DNA of 64,000 nucleotides, taken from positions 124,001 to 188,000 of the forward strand of contig NZ_CP076326.1 of the NCBI RefSeq assembly GCF_018771565.1. The letters run 5' to 3'. The notes beneath the pieces were generated by a model. That model saw only the letters and a program-made list of their open reading frames with translations. It made no database searches and had not been told where the DNA came from. This document shows, one piece after another, positions 42,085 to 52,493 of the stretch (the stretch's first letter is position 1; the number at the start of each line of letters is the position of its first letter). The stretch is from Thermoflexus hugenholtzii. Its GTDB lineage: Bacteria > Chloroflexota > Anaerolineae > Thermoflexales > Thermoflexaceae. A program made the position numbers and the translations under genes.

Positions 42085-42495
42085 ATGAAGGTGGCGATCG
42101 AGGTCCTGAAGCGAGAGATCCTGGAGCGGCTCCGGCCGCTGGATCCCGAGCGGGTGATCCTCTTCGGTAGCTACGCCTGGGGACACCCGACGGAGGACAG
42201 CGATATCGATCTCTACATCGTCACCAAAGATGATTTTCTGCCCCAAAGCTACGAGGAGAGGCGGGAGCTGGTGCGGCGGGTGTCCCGGGCGCTCTGGGAC
42301 CTCCGGCTGCGCGTCCCGATGGATCTGATCGTGCATACGCGGCCGATGAGCGAGCGATTCTTCCGGAACGGGGGCTCCATGGCCCGGGAGATTCAGGAAA
42401 GGGGGATCGTGTGGTATGAGTCGGGAGATCGCCCGGGAATGGTGGAGATCGGCGGAGGCCGACCTTCGGACGATCGAGCGGATCCCGGACGGTGA
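42085..42495 (+). CDS. MNT-type nucleotidyltransferase (minimal NTase)
   Basis: The 136-residue protein has the GSYAWGHPTEDSDIDLYIV core (residues about 28-46) with GS and D-x-D, then VPMDLIVHTRPMSERF. It starts at ATG 42085 and overlaps the HEPN fragment by 80 bases, as in HEPN-MNT toxin-antitoxin pairs where the MNT enzyme adenylylates and silences the HEPN RNase. Here the HEPN partner is broken. The last 20 residues (SGDRPGMVEIGGGRPSDDRADPGR) are the other-frame reading of the HEPN start and may not be conserved. Confidence 0.85.
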   Translation: MKVAIEVLKREILERLRPLDPERVILFGSYAWGHPTEDSDIDLYIVTKDDFLPQSYEERRELVRRVSRALWDLRLRVPMDLIVHTRPMSERFFRNGGSMAREIQERGIVWYESGDRPGMVEIGGGRPSDDRADPGR

Positions 42496-42526: not shown

Positions 42527-42591
42527 GTAGGACAACTGCTCGCAGTTGTCCTACAAGGCGGCCAGGCCCGACAAAATCGGGACACACCCCC
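42527..42591. repeat. Palindromic element, copy 2 (inverse orientation)
   Basis: A 13-base-arm palindrome (42527-42554, GTAGGACAACTGC arms) is followed by GGCCAGGCCCGACAAAATCGG and ACACACCCCC, the reverse complement of the element at 24611-24690. It interrupts the HEPN gene, which shows the element can move or recombine. Confidence 0.75.
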
Positions 42592-42611
42592 AAAGATCAG
42601 CCCGCGCAAGG

Positions 42612-42633
42612 CTCTTCCGGGACCTGGGATCGA
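42612..42633 (+). repeat. 22-base echo of the Uma2 3' end
   Basis: CTCTTCCGGGACCTGGGATC and the next two bases match 41968-41989 with one mismatch, covering the LFRDL end of the Uma2 gene and its stop region. It looks like the scar of a lost second Uma2 gene or of a local duplication. Confidence 0.6.
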
Positions 42634-42647
42634 TGGGAGGAGGCGGG

Positions 42648-42854
42648 ATGGAGCCGCTGGACCGCATCACGGTGGACCCGGGGATCTGCATGGGCCAGCC
42701 GACCATTCGAGGGATGCGGATCACGGCCAGTGTCATCGTAAAGATGCTGGCCGCCGGTCGCTCCATCTCCGAGATCCTCGAGGCCTACCCGGAGCTGGAG
42801 GAGGAGGACGTCGATCAGGTCCTGAAATATACATCCTTCATGCCCCGGGATTGA
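42648..42854 (+). CDS. DUF433 protein (antitoxin-like)
   Basis: The 68-residue product reads MEPLDRITVDPGICMGQPTI and then RGMRITASVIVKMLAAGRSISEILEAYPELEEEDVDQVLKY, the DUF433 winged-helix core. DUF433 genes usually precede a PIN-like DUF5615 gene as a toxin-antitoxin pair; no such gene follows, as an IS607-like element begins about 70 bases later. GGGAGGAGGCGGG precedes ATG 42648. The C-terminal YTSFMPRD is atypical and could be truncated. Confidence 0.82.
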   Translation: MEPLDRITVDPGICMGQPTIRGMRITASVIVKMLAAGRSISEILEAYPELEEEDVDQVLKYTSFMPRD

Positions 42855-42928: not shown

Positions 42929-44254
42929 TTATTTCACCCGCCTGGGGTGAAACTCATGACGGGCTGCTTCCTGCTTCATCGACCCATGGCTCGTAGACCG
43001 ACCCTCACGGGCCGTTCCGCCGCCAGAGGGATCTCCACAGGCGTCACTTCCCGGGGAACTCCCGGTAGGGCCTTTCAGGGCGGCCAACCCGTAGTTTCTC
43101 AGATTGAGGGCCGCGTTGAGATCCCGATCCACCTCCAGCCCGCACGCCCCACAGTGAAACACCCGCTGGGAAAGGGGGAGCGCAGGACCGACCCAGCCGC
43201 AGCGCGAGCACCGCTTCGTGGACGGGAAGTCCCGCGGCGCAATGAGGAGCACGGCCCCATACCAGGCGCACTTATACTCCAGCATCCGCCGGAAGGCCCC
43301 CCACCCCACATCCTGAATGGTCCGGGAAAGGCTCCCGTTCCGCGCCAAGCCCTGCACGTTCAGGTCTTCCACCACCAGAACCGGCTTGGCTTTCGCCAGC
43401 TCCGTGGTGACCTTGTGCAGGAAGTCCCGGCGGATGTTCCGAACCCGGCGGTGCAGCCGGGCCAGACGCAACACGGCCTTCTCGTAGTTGCGAGAGAAAA
43501 CCGTCCGCTTCCGCTCCTTACCCGTCTCCGGGTCTTGTTCCACCACCGTCTTCTTCTGCTTCCGCGAGAGCTGCTTCGAACGCTGCTTCAAAAGCCGCAA
43601 AGCCTTCGCCAGAGGCTTCGGGGCCTCCATCCGCGTTCCATCCGACAGCACGGCGAACGACTCCAGCCCCACGTCGATGCCCACCACATCCTCCGGGCCC
43701 CGGATCTCCCGGGGCTCGGGATCCGGGCGCTCCACCTCGCAGGTCAGGCTCACGAACCAGCGATCCGCCTCTCGGGAGATAGTCGCCGAGAGGATGCGGG
43801 CCTTCCCGGACTGAAGGAGCTCCAGGAGCTGGTCCGTCCGCTCCCTGGTGCGGACCTTGCCGATGCGAGGAAGCTGCACGTGCCGGGGAGTGACCCGGAT
43901 GGAGCCGGTCAGCCGGGCCTTGTTGTCCGCCAGAGCCTTCTTGCGTTTGAAGCGGGGGAAGCCGGCCCGGCCCTCCCGCCAGTTGCGGACAGCCCGCTCC
44001 AGATCCCGGAAGGCCTCCTGGGGGGCGCATTTGGACACCTCCACCCACCAGGGGGCGTGCTTCCGCTTCCACTCGTTCCAGTCCTTGTGGAGGTCCACCG
44101 CCGAGGGGATCTGCTCACCGCGCGCTTGGGCTTCCAAACAGCGGGCCAGGCCCCAGTTGTAGGCGAAGCGGGCGGCGCCCACGTGCTTCGCCAGGGCGAT
44201 CCGGGCCTCCCGGTTGGGGTCCAGCTCGAAGCGGAACGCCTGCTTGACTTGCAT
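42929..44254 (-). CDS. tnpB: TnpB RNA-guided nuclease (IS607-type)
   Basis: The roughly 441-residue protein has an intact split RuvC site: D194 in VVGIDVGLES, E296 in VLVVEDLNV and D378 in EVDRDLNAALNL, plus a zinc finger (C349, C352, C368, C371 in CSRCG...CGACG) and the N-terminal AFRFELDPNREARIALAKHVGAARFAYNWGL start. TnpB cuts DNA at guide-matched sites next to a motif and helps keep the transposon. I prefer ATG 44254 (MQVKQAF) with GGGAGG upstream; ATG 44269 is an alternative. It lies below the tnpA fragment. Confidence 0.94.
   Translation of the reverse strand: MQVKQAFRFELDPNREARIALAKHVGAARFAYNWGLARCLEAQARGEQIPSAVDLHKDWNEWKRKHAPWWVEVSKCAPQEAFRDLERAVRNWREGRAGFPRFKRKKALADNKARLTGSIRVTPRHVQLPRIGKVRTRERTDQLLELLQSGKARILSATISREADRWFVSLTCEVERPDPEPREIRGPEDVVGIDVGLESFAVLSDGTRMEAPKPLAKALRLLKQRSKQLSRKQKKTVVEQDPETGKERKRTVFSRNYEKAVLRLARLHRRVRNIRRDFLHKVTTELAKAKPVLVVEDLNVQGLARNGSLSRTIQDVGWGAFRRMLEYKCAWYGAVLLIAPRDFPSTKRCSRCGWVGPALPLSQRVFHCGACGLEVDRDLNAALNLRNYGLAALKGPTGSSPGSDACGDPSGGGTAREGRSTSHGSMKQEAARHEFHPRRVK
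42932..42952 (-). ncRNA. Candidate omega-RNA 3' hairpin of TnpB
   Basis: TTTCACCC and GGGTGAAA form an 8-bp stem with a 5-base loop at the very 3' end of tnpB. In IS200/605 and IS607 systems the guide RNA comes from the 3' end of tnpB and runs past the element end, so bases just below 42925 on the minus strand would be the guide. Only this hairpin is seen; the full RNA is inferred. Confidence 0.45.
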
Positions 44255-44341
44255 CCCATTGCCTCCCATGCTGGCCGGGCTCGTCTCCTGGCCGACCGAC
44301 GCCCATGTCGCCCCGAAGCGGCCATAGCCGCTTCCAGCAAG

Positions 44342-44680
44342 TCAAATCCGAACCACCTGGGGATCCCGCAGGATCCGTAGAAGTTTCTTTCGTTTTCCGT
44401 TCAGCCCGAAGCCGATTTCGGTCACCGCTTTAACCTCTGTCCAACCTTGTTCTTGGGCAAAGGCCTGAAGGCGTTGAACTTGCCGTTCCAGATCCTCTTT
44501 CTGGTCAGCGGAGGACACTCGGGCATAGCGCACAGGGATACCTTCTGGGTGAGGCGCTTCTACCCAGATGGTCCCAGCAGGCAATGGGCGGGCAGGGACA
44601 GGAAGCTTTCCTGCCCGAAACCACCGCCAGGCGGTGATATCGCTTATCCCCTGCTGACGAGCCCAATCTGAGAGTTTCAT
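44342..44680 (-). pseudogene. tnpA: IS607 serine recombinase TnpA, C-terminally truncated
   Basis: The 112-residue reading frame has a MerR-like DNA-binding helix (MKLSDWARQQGISDITAWRW) and the serine recombinase start IPVRYARVSSADQKEDLERQ with the catalytic serine (S56). Full IS607 TnpA proteins are about 190-220 residues; this one stops after LLRILRDPQVVRI, so the second half of the catalytic domain and its helical tail are lost. About 70 non-coding bases follow before tnpB. Start ATG 44680 has only a weak binding site. Confidence 0.85.
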
Positions 44681-44758
44681 GGCTGAAATAAATGATAATA
44701 AAATTGCCAACAGTTGTCCACCCCCGGGTTCGCTCTCCCGGAGCGGGAGGAGCAGGTC

Positions 44759-46114
44759 GTGAGCGACATCGAGACCGCCTACGCGGAGGTCCTGGCCGAG
44801 CTCTTCGGCCGGGCGGATTTCGAGGCCCGCCGGCCCCGGCTCCCGGAGGCTTTCCGCCTGGAGCCGATCCGAAGCTTGCTGGAGCGGCTGGGCGACCCCC
44901 ACCGGCGCTACGCCGTGGTCCACATCGCGGGCACCAAGGGCAAGGGCTCCACGGCCGCGATGGTGGAGGCCATCCTGCGGGCCGCCGGCTACCGCACCGG
45001 CCTCTACACCTCCCCCCATCTCCACACCATGCGGGAGCGCATCCGCATCGACGGGGAGCCCATCCCCCCTGCGACCGTGGTTCATCTCTTTGAGCGCCTC
45101 CGGCCCGAGATCGCGGCGGATCCGGCCCTCACGGTTTTCGACATCCTGACCGCCATGGGTTTCCTCGCGTTCGCGGAGGCCGGGGTCGAGATCGCCGTGG
45201 TGGAGGTGGGCCTGGGGGGGCGGCTGGACTCCACCAACGTGGTCTCCCCGGCGGTCTGCCTGATCACCGCCCTCAGCATGGATCACATGGAGATCCTGGG
45301 CCCTACGCTCACCCACATCGCCTTTGAGAAGGCCGGCATCATCAAGCCGGGGATCCCGGTGGGGACTGCCCCTCAAGCCGAGGAGGCGATGGCGGTGTTG
45401 CGGCGGGTGGCGGCGGAGCGCGGCGCCCCTCTCCTGACCCTGGATGGATGGCGGTATGGTCCGCGGGAGATCTCGCCGGCGGGGCAGTGGGGGGAGATCC
45501 ACCCGCCGGAGGGATCGGGCTGGTCGGTGCGCCTTCCCCTTCTGGGCCGCCATCAGTGGGAGAACGCCGCCCTGGCGGTCCTGGCCGCCCTCCAGCTGCG
45601 GGCGCAGGGCTGGTCGCTCCCCGATGCGGCGATCCCGGAGGGGCTGGCGCGGGTGCGCTGGCCCGGCCGATTCGAGGTGTTGCGGGAGGAGCCCCCGGTG
45701 GTGCTGGACGGGGCCCACAACGATGCCTCCGCCGCTCGCCTGGCGGAGACCCTGATGGAGGTCTTCCCGGGGCGCCGCTGGGGGCTGGTCTTCGGGGTCT
45801 CGGCGGACAAGGACGTGGCGGCCATCCTGCGGCCGCTGCGCCCCCTGGTCGGGGAGGTCTGGCTGACCCGATCCCGTCATCCCCGGGCGGCCGATCCCGC
45901 GGCGCTCGTGGCCGCTGCGGCGGCCTTCGGCCTCCCCGCTCGGGTGCGGGCGACGGTGGCGACGGCCGTTGAGGAGGCCCTGGCCTCCGGCGGGCCGGTG
46001 CTGGTCACCGGCTCCCTCTTCGTGGTCGCCGAGGCCCGGGAGGCGTGGGCGGCGCGGGGCGGGATGCCCATGCCGGAGGTCGATCCCCTTCCCCTCCGGG
46101 TCGGGGGTCGGTGA
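44759..46114 (+). CDS. folC: Folylpolyglutamate/dihydrofolate synthase
   Basis: The 451-residue Mur-ligase-like enzyme has the P-loop VHIAGTKGKGSTAAMVEAIL (about 48-67), YTSPHLHTMRERIRIDG, VEVGLGGRLDSTN, SMDHMEILGPTLTHIAFEKAGIIKPG and the C-terminal GAHNDASAARLAETL, as in FolC, which adds glutamate to folates. GGGAGGAG lies six bases before GTG 44759; a TTG at 44714 is upstream of that site. The IS607-like element ends 63 bases before it, so its native promoter may have been displaced. Confidence 0.95.
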   Translation: MSDIETAYAEVLAELFGRADFEARRPRLPEAFRLEPIRSLLERLGDPHRRYAVVHIAGTKGKGSTAAMVEAILRAAGYRTGLYTSPHLHTMRERIRIDGEPIPPATVVHLFERLRPEIAADPALTVFDILTAMGFLAFAEAGVEIAVVEVGLGGRLDSTNVVSPAVCLITALSMDHMEILGPTLTHIAFEKAGIIKPGIPVGTAPQAEEAMAVLRRVAAERGAPLLTLDGWRYGPREISPAGQWGEIHPPEGSGWSVRLPLLGRHQWENAALAVLAALQLRAQGWSLPDAAIPEGLARVRWPGRFEVLREEPPVVLDGAHNDASAARLAETLMEVFPGRRWGLVFGVSADKDVAAILRPLRPLVGEVWLTRSRHPRAADPAALVAAAAAFGLPARVRATVATAVEEALASGGPVLVTGSLFVVAEAREAWAARGGMPMPEVDPLPLRVGGR

Positions 46115-46189: not shown

Positions 46190-46976
46190 CCGTCGAATGA
46201 ATTCGACCTTTTGCGTCGGCGGAGGCCGACGCTTGGCGCGGAGCGTCTTGGGAGGCCGATTTCAATCGGCGTCAAAGGCCTTCGGCCGACGGTCGGCCTG
46301 CACGCCGAATGAATTCGGCCTCCAGGGGCCTCTGGCCGGTGAGTCGGCCTACGCCGACCTGGAAAAGCACCTTTTGCGTCGGCGGAGGCCGACGCTTGGC
46401 GCGGAGCGTCTTGGGAGGCCGATTTCAATCGGCGTCAAAGGCCTTCGGCCGACGGTCGGCCTGCACGCCGAATGAATTCGGCCTCCAGGGGCCTTTGGCC
46501 GGTGGTCGGCCTACGCCGACCTGGAAAAGCACCTTTTGCGTCGGCGGAGGCCGACGCCTGGCGCGTCTTGGGAGGCCGATTTCAATCGGCGCCAAGGCCT
46601 TCGGCCGACGGTCGGCCTGCGCCGACCGGGAAAGCGTTCTTTGCGTCGGCGCAGGCCGACGCCTGGCGCGCAGCGCCTTGAGAGGCCGATTTCAATCGGC
46701 ACCAAGGCCTTCGGCCGGTGAGTCGCCTGCGCCGACCTGGAAAAGCACCTTTTGCGTCGGCGGAGGCCGACGCTTGGCGCGGAGCGCCTGAGGAGGCCGA
46801 TTTCAATCGGCGTCAAAGGCCTTCGGCCGGTGGGTCGCCTACGCCGACCGGGAGAAGATTCTTTTGCGTCGGCGGAGGCCGACGCCCGGCGCGCAGCGCC
46901 TTAAGAGGCCGATTTCAATCGGCTTTCAAGGCCGACGCCTGGCGCGGAGCGCCTTTGAAGGCCGATTTCAATCGGC
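46190..46976. repeat. Tandem array of nested palindromes upstream of lon
   Basis: Seven copies of GCCGATTTCAATCGGC (46255, 46418, 46575, 46685, 46796, 46908, 46961) alternate with six copies of a GCGTCGGC/GCCGACGC hairpin (46213, 46376, 46538, 46643, 46754, 46866), each followed by a GGCGCGxAGCG stretch. Two units also carry GCCGAATGAATTCGGC (46304, 46467), and all include GGCCTTCGGCC-like palindromes. Spacing falls from about 163 to 157, 110, 111, 112 and 53 bases, as if units were shortened by deletion. Any open frame there merely translates the repeats. Confidence 0.9.
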
Positions 46977-47017
46977 ACCCGGGTGGCGCTCCGGACTCCC
47001 CCTTCTCCCGGCCCCTG

Positions 47018-47026
47018 TGATAGAAT
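47018..47026 (+). promoter_or_regulatory. Extended -10 promoter of lon
   Basis: TGATAGAAT is an extended -10 (TG, one base, TAGAAT) 58 bases before the lon ATG. The -35 region, GC-rich, has no consensus TTGACA, as expected for extended -10 promoters. The predicted start is near 47033. Confidence 0.6.
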
Positions 47027-47083: not shown

Positions 47084-49471
47084 ATGGCGCTGGAGCCGGT
47101 CCTGGGAGAGGAAGCGCTGGACCAGCGGGCGGAGGGGGAGGAGCAAGTGGAAGCGGCGGTCCTCCCCCTGCGGGACGTGGTGGTTTTCCCCCGCATGGTG
47201 ACCCCGTTGCGGGTGGGCCGCGACAAATCCCTGCGGGCGGTGGAGGCGGCCGTCCAGCGGGAGGAGCCCCTGGTGGTCCTCACCCAGCGGGCGGAGGAGG
47301 TCGAGGATCCCACCCCGGAGGACCTCTACACCGTGGGGACGCTGGTCTCGGTGGCGCGGGTGCTGCGCATGCCCGACGGCACCACCAGCGTCCTGGTCCA
47401 GGGCCAGCAGCGAGCCCAGGTGGTGGAGTTCCTGCAGCAGGAGCCCTACCTGCGGGCCCGCGTCCGCCTGATCTTCGAGCGGACGGATCGGCCGCCGGCC
47501 ACCGAGGCCCTGATGCGGGCCGTCCTCTCCCAGTTCGAGCGGGTGGTGCAGCTGGACCGGTCGGTGCCGGAGGACGCCTATGTCTTCGCCATGAACATTG
47601 AGGAGCCGGGCTGGCTGGCGGATCTCATCGCCAGCACCCTGAACCTGAAGACGGCGGAGCGGCAGGAGCTCCTGGAGATCTTCGAGCCCTCGGCGCGGCT
47701 GCTGCGCCTCTCCATCCTGCTGGCGCGGCTCCTGGACGTCCTGGAGCTGGAGAGCAAGATCCAGGCCCAGGTGCAGCAGGAGGTGGACCGGACCCAGCGG
47801 GAGTTCTACCTGCGGGAGCAGATGAAGGCCATCCAGCACGAGCTGGGGGAGGTCGACGTCTACACCCAGGAGATCCAGGAGCTGCGGGAGCGGATCGAGG
47901 CCAAGAACCTCCCCGAGGAAGTGCGGGCCCGGGCGGAGAAGGAGCTCAACCGGCTGGCCCAGATGCCGCCCCTCTCCCCGGAGGTCAGCATCGTCCGCAC
48001 CTACATCGACTGGATCCTGGAGCTGCCCTGGACCGAGGAGACCGAGGACAACCTGGACATCGCCCATGCGGCGGAGGTGCTGGAGCGGCATCACTACGGG
48101 CTGAGGAAGGCCAAGGAGCGCATCCTGGAGTTCCTGGCGGTGCGCAAGCTGGCGGGGGATCGCAGCCGCAGCCCCATCCTCTGCTTCGTGGGGCCGCCGG
48201 GGACCGGCAAGACCTCCCTGGGGAAGGCCATCGCCGAGGCCCTGGGCCGGCGGTTCGTGCGGATATCCCTGGGAGGGATCCACGACGAGGCGGAGATCCG
48301 GGGGCATCGTCGGACCTACATCGGCGCCCTGCCGGGGCGGATCCTGCAGGGGATGGCCCGGGCGGGGACCATCAATCCGGTTTTCATGCTGGATGAGATC
48401 GATAAGATCGGGGCGGACTTCCGGGGGGATCCGGCGGCGGCCCTCCTGGAGGTGCTGGATCCCGAGCAGAACCATGCCTTCTCGGACCACTACCTGGAGA
48501 TCCCGTATAACCTTTCCAAGGTCCTCTTCATCACCACGGCCAACATCCTGGACACGATCCCGCCGGCCCTGCGGGACCGGCTGGAGGTCATCGAGTTCCC
48601 GGGCTACACCGAGGGGGAGAAGGTGCAGATCGCCCGGCGGTTCCTGATCCCCCGCCAGATGGAGGAGAACGGGCTGGCAGGGATCCCGCTGAAGATCACC
48701 GATGGGGCTCTGCGGCGGATCATTCGGGAATACACCTCGGAGGCGGGGGTGCGGAACCTGGAGCGGGAGATCGCGGCCATCTGCCGCAAGACGGCGCGCC
48801 TGGTGGCGGAGGGGAAGCCGTATCGGCGGGTGATCACCCCGGCCGTTCTCGAGCGGTATCTGGGGCCGCCCCGGTATGACTACGGGCGGGCGGAGGAGGC
48901 GGATCAGGTGGGGGTGGCCATGGCCCTGGCCTGGACGGAGGCGGGGGGCGAGGTGATGCCGGTGGAGGTGACGTTGATGGAGGGGAAGGGGGTTTTGCTG
49001 CTCACGGGCCAGCTGGGGGAGGTGATGCAGGAGTCGGCCCAGGCGGCGTTGAGCTACGTGCGCTCCCGGGCGCGCGATTTCGGGATCCGGCCGAAGCGGT
49101 TCGAGAAGACGGATGTGCACGTTCACGTGCCCGAGGGGGCGATCCCGAAGGATGGGCCTTCAGCGGGGATCACCATCGCCACGGCCCTGGTGTCGGCCTT
49201 CACGGGGATTCCGGTGCGGCGGGACACGGCGATGACGGGGGAGATCACCTTGCGGGGGCGGGTGCTGCCCATCGGGGGGTTGAAGGAGAAGATCCTGGCC
49301 GCCCATCGGGCGGGGATCCAGCGGGTGATCCTGCCGAAGAAGAACCAGCGGGACCTGGTCGAGCTGCCCCGGCGGGAGATCCGGGGGATGACCCTGATCT
49401 TCGTGGAGACCATGGAGGAAGTCCTGCGCGCCGCCCTCGCCCGCCCCCTCCGAGGGCTCCGCGCTCGTTGA
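47084..49471 (+). CDS. lon: ATP-dependent protease Lon
   Basis: The 795-residue protein has the Lon substrate domain (residues 23-220; [21 protein letters not shown]), a coiled-coil (about 225-290), the AAA+ domain with Walker A GPPGTGKT (370-377) and Walker B MLDEID (435-440), and the protease domain with the Ser-Lys dyad S693 (PKDGPSAGI) and K736 (GGLKEKIL). It degrades damaged and regulatory proteins. It is monocistronic with an array of palindromes upstream. ATG 47084. Confidence 0.97.
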
Positions 49472-49923
49472 TAGATAGCGAACGAATTCGGATAGGAGTT
49501 ATGCGGTTGGATGGAGGGGATAGGGGAATGAGCCCGGTAATGCCGGATGGCCTCCCGGAGGATGACCGCCTGGGCCCCCTCTCCCTCCCTACCTCTTGGC
49601 AAGCTCTCGCTCTTCATGTTAGGTTTAGTATGGGATTGCAGAGTGAGGCCATGCCGATCGACGGCAGATAGCTAAGAGGCATGCCACGGAGCGAAATGCT
49701 CCTCGGTGGCATTAGCCGCCGAGGGAGGGCTCGGTGGGTGATCCCCTTCGCCGGTCCTCCGGCCTTGGGTGAAAAGCCCCCGACCACGACCGGAATACGC
49801 AGAAAGCAGCGTAAATCCTATTGAAAATCGAGCATCGGCGCTGATGTTCATTCGGATCTTTTCGCGAATCGAGTCTATACGATTAAGGTTCTCTTTGTGA
49901 GTTTTGTGAGGATATCATACAAC
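49472..49923. other. Gene-free stretch between lon and the glycan cluster
   Basis: About 450 bases without a supported gene. The first half is GC-rich and structured (see the candidate RNA at 49652-49775); after about 49800 the composition turns AT-rich, which marks the border to the glycan cluster. No terminator with a T-run was seen after lon. Confidence 0.6.
49652..49775 (+). ncRNA. Candidate structured RNA with four hairpins
   Basis: Four consecutive stems: TGCCG/CGGCA (49652-49666), a two-part ATGCCAC-GGAGC stem with GAAAT loop and 3-base bulge (49681-49712), CCGCCGAG/CTCGGTGG with one G-U pair (49716-49737), and CCC-GCCGG/CCGGC-GGG with symmetric inner loop (49743-49769). It ends before a GGGTGAAAAGCCCCC stretch. 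Strand and function are uncertain; it does not fit a riboswitch class I know by heart. It could be a leader or a free RNA. Confidence 0.4.
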
Positions 49924-51273
49924 ATGTTTGGAAGTCGAAAGTATATCTTGATCATTAGCCATGATGTTGTTGGTGATCGGATGGCAGGCCCAGGTATTCG
50001 TTATTTTCATCTAGCACGGGTTTTAGCCCAGGAGTTTCGAGTAATCCTTGCTGTCCCTGAAGGATCCATGGTTTCTGGGATCTTTCCCATAATCATTTAC
50101 CGTTCTGAAAGGGATGCACTTCTGGAGCAAGCTATAGCGAATGCACGGGTGGTGATTATTCCGGCAGTGTATGTTGCCCAGATCCCAGCTATCTGGAATA
50201 CTGATTCCTTCATTGTAGTGGACGGATATGATCCATTTGTGGCCGAATCTTTATTCCTGGGCGGAGATGTTCTCGCCTTGCAACGTGCTCTGACTAAAGC
50301 CTATTTGGTGGGAGATTTCTTTATTTGCGCCAGTGAGCGCCAGCGGGACTGGTTGTTAGGATTATTAGAGGCTCATGGGCGGATTAATCCGTTCACTTTT
50401 AGCGAGGATCCATCCTTGCGAAAACTGGTGGATGTTGTCCCTTTCGGTCTTCCGGAGACTCCCCCACAAGCGACCAAGCCAGTTATAAGGGGTGTCTGGC
50501 CTGGCATCAGTAGGCAGGACAAAGTGGTTCTCTGGGGAGGTGGGCTCTGGCCCTGGCTGGACCCGTTGACTGCTATCCGTGCCGTGGCTCGGGTCTGGCA
50601 GCAACGCCGGGATGTGCGACTGATTTTCCCCGGAACCCGTCATCCCAATCCTCAGATGGTCAATATTCCAACCCATAACGAAAGAGCTAAGATCTTAGCG
50701 GAGGAACTTGGATTATTAAATAAGGCTATTTTCTTTGGAGAATGGGTCCCATATATCGACTGGCCAGGTGTATTGCTGGAGAGCGATTTGGCTATAACCC
50801 TCCATCTGGATACGCTGGAAGCTCGTTTGGCTTTTCGTAGCCGGGTGCTGGACTACATTTGGGCGGGCTTGCCGGTTATCGCCACTCGGGGAGATGCGAT
50901 TAGCGATCTAATAGAACGATATCAATTGGGAATCGTGGTGGATTATGAGGATGATTTGGGCGTAGCCAGCGCGATTCTTCAGCTCCTGGAGATCCCGAAA
51001 GAGATCTGGCGGACACGATTTGAGAAGGCTTGGAAAGATTTGACCTGGGAGCGTGCAGCGCGGCCTTTGATGGAATTCTGTCATTCCCCTCGCCGAGCGC
51101 CGGATAAAGCGACGTTGGGAGAACATATAGGCAACCCATATTACATAAGCGAGATTACCTATTTGCGAACGCTCATAAAAGGATATGAGCAAGGACGGTT
51201 TATCCGTTTGATGCGCTGGCTCCATCAAACCAGGGTTGAGGTCCAAAAATGGTTGCGCCAAAGGTTTCTGTGA
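49924..51273 (+). CDS. Glycosyltransferase, GT4 type
   Basis: The 449-residue protein has the GT-B layout: YILIISHDVVGDRMAGPGIRYFHLARVLAQ at the N-terminus with the G-P-G-x-R loop, and in the C-terminal half LWGGGLWPWLDPLTAIRA and VLDYIWAGLPVIATRGDAISDLI. It likely transfers a sugar from a nucleotide sugar to a lipid-linked or surface glycan. ATG 49924 gives the conserved start (GTGAGGAT upstream); a GTG at 49897 is possible. It is the first gene of the AT-richer cluster and its end overlaps the next gene by 25 bases. Confidence 0.85.
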   Translation: MFGSRKYILIISHDVVGDRMAGPGIRYFHLARVLAQEFRVILAVPEGSMVSGIFPIIIYRSERDALLEQAIANARVVIIPAVYVAQIPAIWNTDSFIVVDGYDPFVAESLFLGGDVLALQRALTKAYLVGDFFICASERQRDWLLGLLEAHGRINPFTFSEDPSLRKLVDVVPFGLPETPPQATKPVIRGVWPGISRQDKVVLWGGGLWPWLDPLTAIRAVARVWQQRRDVRLIFPGTRHPNPQMVNIPTHNERAKILAEELGLLNKAIFFGEWVPYIDWPGVLLESDLAITLHLDTLEARLAFRSRVLDYIWAGLPVIATRGDAISDLIERYQLGIVVDYEDDLGVASAILQLLEIPKEIWRTRFEKAWKDLTWERAARPLMEFCHSPRRAPDKATLGEHIGNPYYISEITYLRTLIKGYEQGRFIRLMRWLHQTRVEVQKWLRQRFL

Positions 51274-52493
51274 TTATACCAATATGGAACGGATCTGAAT
51301 ATTTAAATGCATGTTTAGATAGTTTAATAGCTCATGATTATCCGATTTTTGAGATTATTGCAGTCGATAATGCCTCAGTGGATGGTTCGGCTGAGTTGAT
51401 TGCCCGGCGCTACCCACAGGTGCGGCTGATTCGCAATGCCGTGAATCTCGGGTTTGCTGGAGGGTGTAATGCTGGTCTCAAAGCGGCTCATGGAGATATT
51501 CTGGTATTGCTGAATCAAGACACTATTGTCCAACCTGGTTGGCTTCAGGCCCTCGTGAAAGCACTTCAAAAAACCAAGATAGGGGTTGTGGGATGCAAGA
51601 TGCTCTATCCGGATGGCAGGACGATTCAGCATGCTGGGGGATGGATTGAATGGCCGCTCGGCCTGGCCCACCATTATGGTCAGGGAGAGCAGGATAAGGG
51701 CCAATGGGATGAATCCAGGCCAGTAGACTATGTGACCGGGGCCGCTATGGCTTTTCGGCGGGATGTTCTAGAAAATGTGGGTTATATGGATGAAGGATTC
51801 TGGCCCGCTTATTATGAGGATGTGGATTTCTGTTTTCGTGCTCGACAAATCGGATATGAAATTTGGTATATTCATGAATCATTGTTACTGCATTTTGAAA
51901 ACTCCTCGTTAAAAAACACCGGCGAACTTTTTTATTTTAGTGAGAAAAATAGGCTATATTTTGTGTTGAAATATCTTATACCAGAAAAATTTTTGTCCGA
52001 ATTTGTTCCTCTAGAGAAAACAAGGATTTTGGATTTTGTTAAAACCATCGGAGTTTATCCATTACGATTAGCTTATCTAAGTGCCATGCCGATAGCTGCT
52101 CGGGTTCTTATGAAGAGGCAGATTGCAGATGAGGAAACTGTCAATAAAGTTCTTTTAGCACTGAGATCATTGTATCATCTTACCGAAATATATTTAAATG
52201 ACGATTTGAATCAAGACGAACAAATGGTTTTCTCTGGTTTACAAGAATTTGAGTTCCGCTCGGCAATTCCTATAATTGGGCCTCTGATTGCTTGGTTTCG
52301 CAAAACCTGGTATAATGTGGCTGCCCGATGGGCAATCCGGCACTTAATCCAGCAACAGGCAGCAATTAATAAACGGCAAGAACAGATAATTCTAGAACAA
52401 AAACGGAAGATTTTTTGGTTAGAACGATCCTTGATGGAGAACACGCTGTCTTTGAGTCAGGAGATTGCTCGGCTGCTCTTGGAATCAAAGTAA
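51249..52493 (+). CDS. Glycosyltransferase family 2 with C-terminal helper module
   Basis: The 414-residue enzyme has the GT2 fold: VSVIIPIWNGSEYLNACLDSLIAHDYPIFEIIAVDNASVDGS, the NLGFAGGCNAGL block, LLNQDTIV (D-x-D-like QDT) and the YYEDVDFCFRARQIGYEIWY acceptor motif, as in WbbL-like rhamnosyltransferases. From about 300 on comes a helical part with SAIPIIGPLIAWFRKTWYNV and QQQAAINKRQEQII, similar to the end of the next protein. Start overlaps the previous gene by 25 bases. Confidence 0.88.
   Translation: MVAPKVSVIIPIWNGSEYLNACLDSLIAHDYPIFEIIAVDNASVDGSAELIARRYPQVRLIRNAVNLGFAGGCNAGLKAAHGDILVLLNQDTIVQPGWLQALVKALQKTKIGVVGCKMLYPDGRTIQHAGGWIEWPLGLAHHYGQGEQDKGQWDESRPVDYVTGAAMAFRRDVLENVGYMDEGFWPAYYEDVDFCFRARQIGYEIWYIHESLLLHFENSSLKNTGELFYFSEKNRLYFVLKYLIPEKFLSEFVPLEKTRILDFVKTIGVYPLRLAYLSAMPIAARVLMKRQIADEETVNKVLLALRSLYHLTEIYLNDDLNQDEQMVFSGLQEFEFRSAIPIIGPLIAWFRKTWYNVAARWAIRHLIQQQAAINKRQEQIILEQKRKIFWLERSLMENTLSLSQEIARLLLESK

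Follow-up and report, generated by a model that had tools for sequence, protein, structure and literature searches.

An array of hairpin-forming repeats lies at the centre of this analysis, in the intergenic region between a folC-like gene and lon in the genome of a hot-spring Thermoflexus (Chloroflexota; G000). All positions are those of the window, the whole 64,000-nucleotide stretch that was analysed, unless a genome is named. The original prediction had described seven copies of GCCGATTTCAATCGGC and six GCGTCGGC/GCCGACGC hairpins before lon, in units of about 160, 110 and 53 bases. Both the copies and the unit sizes are borne out, the start-to-start distances of the 36-nt repeat being 163, 157, 110, 111, 112 and 53 nt. 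Three additional hairpin types (A, B and C), overlooked in that description, were recognised in the array, and the features are collected in the table. The view that this is not a CRISPR array also holds, and we rejected that candidate, since the spacers repeat along with the whole unit and none of them is unique. No Rfam family matches the array.

Table. Features of the repeat array upstream of lon and of its flanks (window positions).
Feature	Position	Strand	Basis or remark
Mur-ligase family gene (folC-like), upstream neighbour	44714..46114	+	
Entire array (modules A to F; F present seven times)	46191..46976	+	Sequence, repeat families D1-D4
Hairpin of module A (GTCGAATGAATTCGAC) at the left array border	46192..46207	+	Arrays genome-wide begin with A
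Further A copies (GCCGAATGAATTCGGC)	46304-46319, 46467-46482	+	
Module D hairpin (GCGTCGGCGnAGGCCGACGC), first of six	46213..46232	+	
D hairpins 2-6	46376-46395, 46538-46557, 46643-46662, 46754-46773, 46866-46885	+	
Module F hairpin (GCCGATTTCAATCGGC), 1 of 7	46255..46270	+	
F hairpins 2-7	46418-46433, 46575-46590, 46685-46700, 46796-46811, 46908-46923, 46961-46976	+	
Module B (AGGCCTTCGGCCGACGGTCGGCC; B begins AGGCCTTCGGCC)	46276..46298	+	
Further B copies	46439-46461, 46489-46511, 46595-46617	+	Remaining B degenerate
Module C hairpin (GGTCGGCCTACGCCGACC / GTCGGCCTGCGCCGAC), inverted copy of D	46504..46521	+	Inverted-repeat pair I9
Further C copies	46342-46359, 46610-46627	+	Remaining C degenerate
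Full unit of about 160 bases, D-E-F-B-A-B-C, single long nested palindrome	46369..46530	+	Folds of 46366-46530
Unit of about 110 bases, D-E-F-B-C	46637..46747	+	Without A and one B
Promoter-like TGTGATAGAAT between array and lon	47016..47026	+	Kept in four Thermoflexus genomes
lon, downstream neighbour	47084..49471	+	

The 165-nt stretch containing the full unit folds far more stably than its shuffled versions, both as RNA (-104.5 kcal/mol against -72.2 +/- 4.3 kcal/mol for shuffles; z -7.6) and as DNA (z -6.1). The shorter unit equals the longer one minus its A and one B copy, which is what recombination between the two B copies would be expected to produce.

In G000, G004, G006 and G001 the promoter-like TGTGATAGAAT comes after the array, and no array precedes lon in G002, G003, G005 and G008 (G007 was not parsed). 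As lon stands without the array in several relatives, the array looks dispensable for lon, and we rejected lon-specific regulation on the same ground. The region preceding lon in G005 (L091) and G002 (L092) holds another long inverted repeat, CTCCCCACGGCCC...GGGCCGTGGGGAG, whose centre has opposite orientations in these genomes. Several neighbours in the window deserve a record of their own. On the minus strand, a TnpB-like gene with OrfB_IS605 and Cas12f1-like TNB domains (42929-44269) is adjoined by a short open frame whose product corresponds to the N-terminal portion of a serine resolvase (44342-44755). The pair, situated 1.5 kb from the array, resembles a truncated IS607-type element. On the plus strand, genes for a nucleotidyltransferase-domain protein (42085-42495) and a DUF433 protein (42546-42854) are possibly parts of toxin-antitoxin-like pairs. 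Downstream of lon, two plus-strand genes (49897-52493) have a third-position G+C of 0.41-0.50 against 0.8-0.9 in their neighbours, suggesting recently acquired, glycosyltransferase-like genes.

The array upstream of lon is one of many. Exact copies of module F number 124 in the genome, on both strands and in about 35 arrays, which are mostly intergenic according to crude gene calls; the same pattern read backwards has 0 matches, and the 163-nt unit has 212. By the same crude gene calls, the genes at the arrays are codirectional in 16 cases, divergent in 9 and convergent in 9, with no arrangement preferred. Copies within an array are more alike (identity 0.89) than copies from different arrays (0.79; 0 of 500 shuffles), which fits local growth. 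The idea of a hotspot of repeat expansion is upheld. The original prediction had further stated that single copies of the units scattered over the genome would make it a mere REP hotspot. This is near to what is found: the units do occur genome-wide, but mostly as multi-copy arrays, one of which holds a candidate cognate transposase gene. Named matches to the repeat come from Candidatus Thermoflexus tengchongensis and Candidatus Thermoflexus japonica. Outside the genus the exact pattern is nearly absent, and three genus members have no exact F copies. No description of the Thermoflexus repeats was found in the mostly open-access literature covered by our search.

Reading of the 35 arrays of G000 defined the underlying element, a nested palindrome of about 128 nt with six modules in the order A-B-C-D-E-F that folds end to end in a REPIN-like manner. 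Module A repeats F in inverted orientation except for one swapped stem pair (compare GCCGAATGAATTCGGC in A with GCCGATTGAAATCGGC, the reverse complement of F), and C repeats D in inverted orientation (inverted-repeat pairs I6, I7 and I9). Module D starts with GCGTC. Within the element, A pairs with F and C with D. A clean solo copy from A to F, 128 nt long, is present at G000:634349-634476 and shows the same end-to-end fold. In a motif scan, nearly all arrays start with A, and they end mostly with F and in a few cases with D or A. The pairing of the stems is kept: among 148 copies, the second pair of module A is C-G in 96, T-A in 37 and something else in 15.

Comparison of the genomes reveals differences in both the presence and the size of the arrays. 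From G004, 20 stretches were selected because they contain F, and 19 of them align to array loci of G000, with flanks that are mostly 93-98% identical. The G004 arrays usually have fewer copies (one F against seven at lon), and since G004 is a draft assembly of 80 contigs, repeat collapse may lower its copy numbers. Three sites that are occupied in G000 and G004 (L057, L059 and L071) are empty in G001 and G008. These empty sites show gain or loss between species, and they do not specify the mechanism. Neither a conserved insertion tetra- or pentanucleotide nor a guide emerged as a clear motif at array borders or empty sites.

Among the four PF01797 matches in G000, the best one (G000:1827597-1828028) lies within a repeat cluster. 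It is a single-copy gene for a Y1 HUH transposase, here called tnpA, which is enclosed by one of the arrays and has no close second copy. The repeat core does not occur around the other three PF01797 genes, which were dropped as partners. Orthologues in two other Thermoflexus species, G003 (82%) and G008 (78%), also have repeats on both sides, and when read on the strand of the gene, F precedes tnpA and A follows it; in G003 the flanking repeat is a different version. The neighbours of tnpA differ among the three species, the gene sitting at unrelated loci. The elements on either side of it are complete, rather than an A-B-C end on one side and a D-E-F end on the other. In G203, a genome more distantly related, a homologue with 63% identity lies between arrays of a related repeat, whose core, GCGAT[TG]TCAATCGC, occurs on both sides of the gene and in 88 copies in the genome. 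The REPtron arrangement, a single-copy Y1 gene with a repeat family on both sides, is thus present in three Thermoflexus species and one more distant genome (G000, G003, G008 and G203). No tnpA was detected in G001 and G004, though both have the repeats, and at the orthologous tnpA locus G004 has one element and no tnpA. In these two genomes either the repeats persist without the gene, or the gene was missed or lost.

TnpA is 144 aa long and retains intact motifs, DHLH (HUH), WQ and YIQRQKEHH (Y). It passes the NCBIfam IS200/IS605 model (58.3 bits against a cut-off of 55) and fails REP_Tyr_transpos, the RAYT model (25.4 bits against 80). Sequence matches in the PDB favour IS200/IS605 TnpA over TnpAREP 4er8, as do the nearest folds of a single-sequence AlphaFold model (mean pLDDT 69). 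A canonical RAYT (class 2) was rejected, with Y---Q--HH in place of Y---NP and a score below the NCBIfam cut-off, and the GT[AG]G foot is absent from the consensus and from array borders. Subclass 1.2 of TnpA_Y1 is characterised by Y---Q--HH, DHxH (published consensus DH[IV]H, against DHLH here) and WQ, a length of about 148 aa and a low copy number (Quentin et al. 2018, PMC6006769). Its members come mostly from Cyanobacteria and Bacteroidetes, have no REP in the table of that paper and are described as being without IS properties (PMC6006769). By motif, length and low copy number, rather than by a tree, TnpA appears to be of the subclass 1.2 type.

Homologues of TnpA at E <= 1e-15 were found in 36 of 400 Chloroflexota genomes, many of them with lineage-specific flanking hairpins. 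Within 0.5 kb of the homologues there are 161 hairpins in 30 kb, compared with 19 in 28 kb at a distance of 1.0-1.5 kb, an approximately eightfold higher density that is inflated by the partly coding nature of the far regions and to which the three Thermoflexus loci contribute 47 of the 161. Loops of the types CTNC/GNAG or TTCA/TGAA (fixed central four bases), which are those of modules C/D and A/F, account for 109 of the near hairpins. At 16 of the 20 parsed homologue loci the hairpins exceed all 20 shuffles. The pattern is not universal: at least two hairpins with loops of these types occur at 14 of the 29 loci outside Thermoflexus. Beyond this phylum, the stem CGATGGGT/ACCCATCG occurs on both sides of the tnpA match on a Persicobacter plasmid (CP012861.1, L203), 85 nt in front of it and 133 nt behind it, and a second homologue on a Bacteroidota plasmid has no clear hairpin pattern.

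Taken together, we consider it probable that the array before lon arose by local tandem expansion of a REPIN/BIME-like non-autonomous element mobilised by the resident subclass 1.2-type TnpA, in a REPtron-like system. TnpA would bind the repeat by recognising its hairpins in single-stranded DNA, cut it, and place the element or a copy of it at intergenic sites. The arrays may then grow by slippage or recombination between adjacent direct repeats, by which the copy number per site would shift. Upstream of lon, the array would be a passenger ahead of the gene's own promoter.

The strongest competitor, which we regard as unlikely, is that tnpA and its flanking ends form a genuine IS200/IS605-type insertion sequence, moving as a unit, and that the MITE-like repeats derive from the ends of this element. 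The NCBIfam score, the nearest folds and the differing neighbours of tnpA in three species speak for it. Yet the gene is present once per genome and is flanked by complete elements, an autonomous element in several copies with fixed ends was not found, and Y---Q--HH is the signature of the subclass described as without IS properties. Less probable still is a role of the repeats as cis-acting RNA elements, namely terminators, mRNA-stabilising hairpins or a lon attenuator. Strong single-strand folding and the mostly intergenic location are compatible with this role, and REPs elsewhere are reported to have roles in termination and mRNA stability (PMC6006769). Against it stand the lack of a preferred gene arrangement and of an Rfam match, the kept promoter-like site that the lon array precedes, and the lon genes without an array; the association with tnpA would also be left unexplained.

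Purely passive tandem duplication, with tnpA trapped in an array by chance and no role for the transposase, has a slightly smaller chance of being correct. It would accommodate the homogeneity within arrays and the genomes that have repeats and no detected tnpA, but not the position of tnpA inside repeats, which recurs at unrelated loci of three Thermoflexus species and, with a related repeat core, in G203; the dispersed and empty sites, moreover, require a process of dispersal. A lon-specific role, or the binding field for a nucleoid or replication protein that the original prediction proposed, is not supported, given the spread over about 35 sites in no preferred arrangement and the empty sites, lon included, in relatives. 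A field for such proteins or for a supercoiling protein, kept for chromosome organisation, is very improbable in spite of the dense, regular stem-loops at about 35 places and the reported binding of gyrase, IHF and Pol I by REPs elsewhere (PMC6006769), as its sites and copy numbers vary between close species, three genus members have no exact copies, and the repeats flanking tnpA go unexplained.

The expansion of a TnpA-mobilised element, our preferred reading, can be set against known systems. Bacteria commonly carry REP repeats, whose spread is linked to a single class of domesticated transposase, the RAYTs. The Thermoflexus system resembles the REP/BIME/REPIN families with their TnpAREP (RAYT) REPtrons, such as E. 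coli rayT, in its dispersed intergenic palindromes, inverted pairs and tandem clusters, in the single-copy Y1 gene flanked by repeats, and in the persistence of repeats in gene-less genomes. It differs from them in its IS200-like TnpA (Y---Q--HH, not Y---NP), in the GT[AG]G foot, which was not seen, and in its larger, six-module nested palindrome. With IS200/IS605 elements (subclass 1.1) and their MITEs it shares the transposase superfamily and subterminal hairpins, whereas its gene is single-copy between complete elements and a multi-copy autonomous element was not found. CGTC-tagged REPs, which reportedly have no dedicated transposase, are likewise palindromic families (PMC3733652), and module D starts with GCGTC; unlike them, the Thermoflexus repeats have a Y1 gene of class 1 type between them. 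The same paper describes TIRtrons, in which inverted repeats of other kinds flank a Y1 gene (PMC3733652). The Y1 genes of class 3, known from Planctomycetes, Acidobacteria and Proteobacteria, are also flanked by atypical non-GTAG high-copy hairpins in a REPtron-like manner, with a CnGA foot, but they have a longer core and Y----Q as the Y motif (PMC6006769), in contrast to Y---Q--HH. Finally, TnpA agrees with subclass 1.2 in DHxH, WQ, Y---Q--HH, similar length and single copy, and departs from its published members in that the gene lies in repeat arrays and in Chloroflexota (PMC6006769).

On balance we favour the view that subclass 1.2, an orphan class of HUH nucleases, is a separate REPtron lineage, in which Chloroflexota genes are accompanied by lineage-specific palindromes that keep two loop types and diverge in their stems, and which spreads REPIN-like elements without the GTAG signal of the RAYTs. 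If so, there would be another transposase class, IS200-like, that has repeats of its own, suggesting more than one origin of the REPtron arrangement, subclass 1.2 would gain a candidate substrate, and repeats with the same loops and different stems would offer natural variants for studying hairpin recognition by HUH nucleases.
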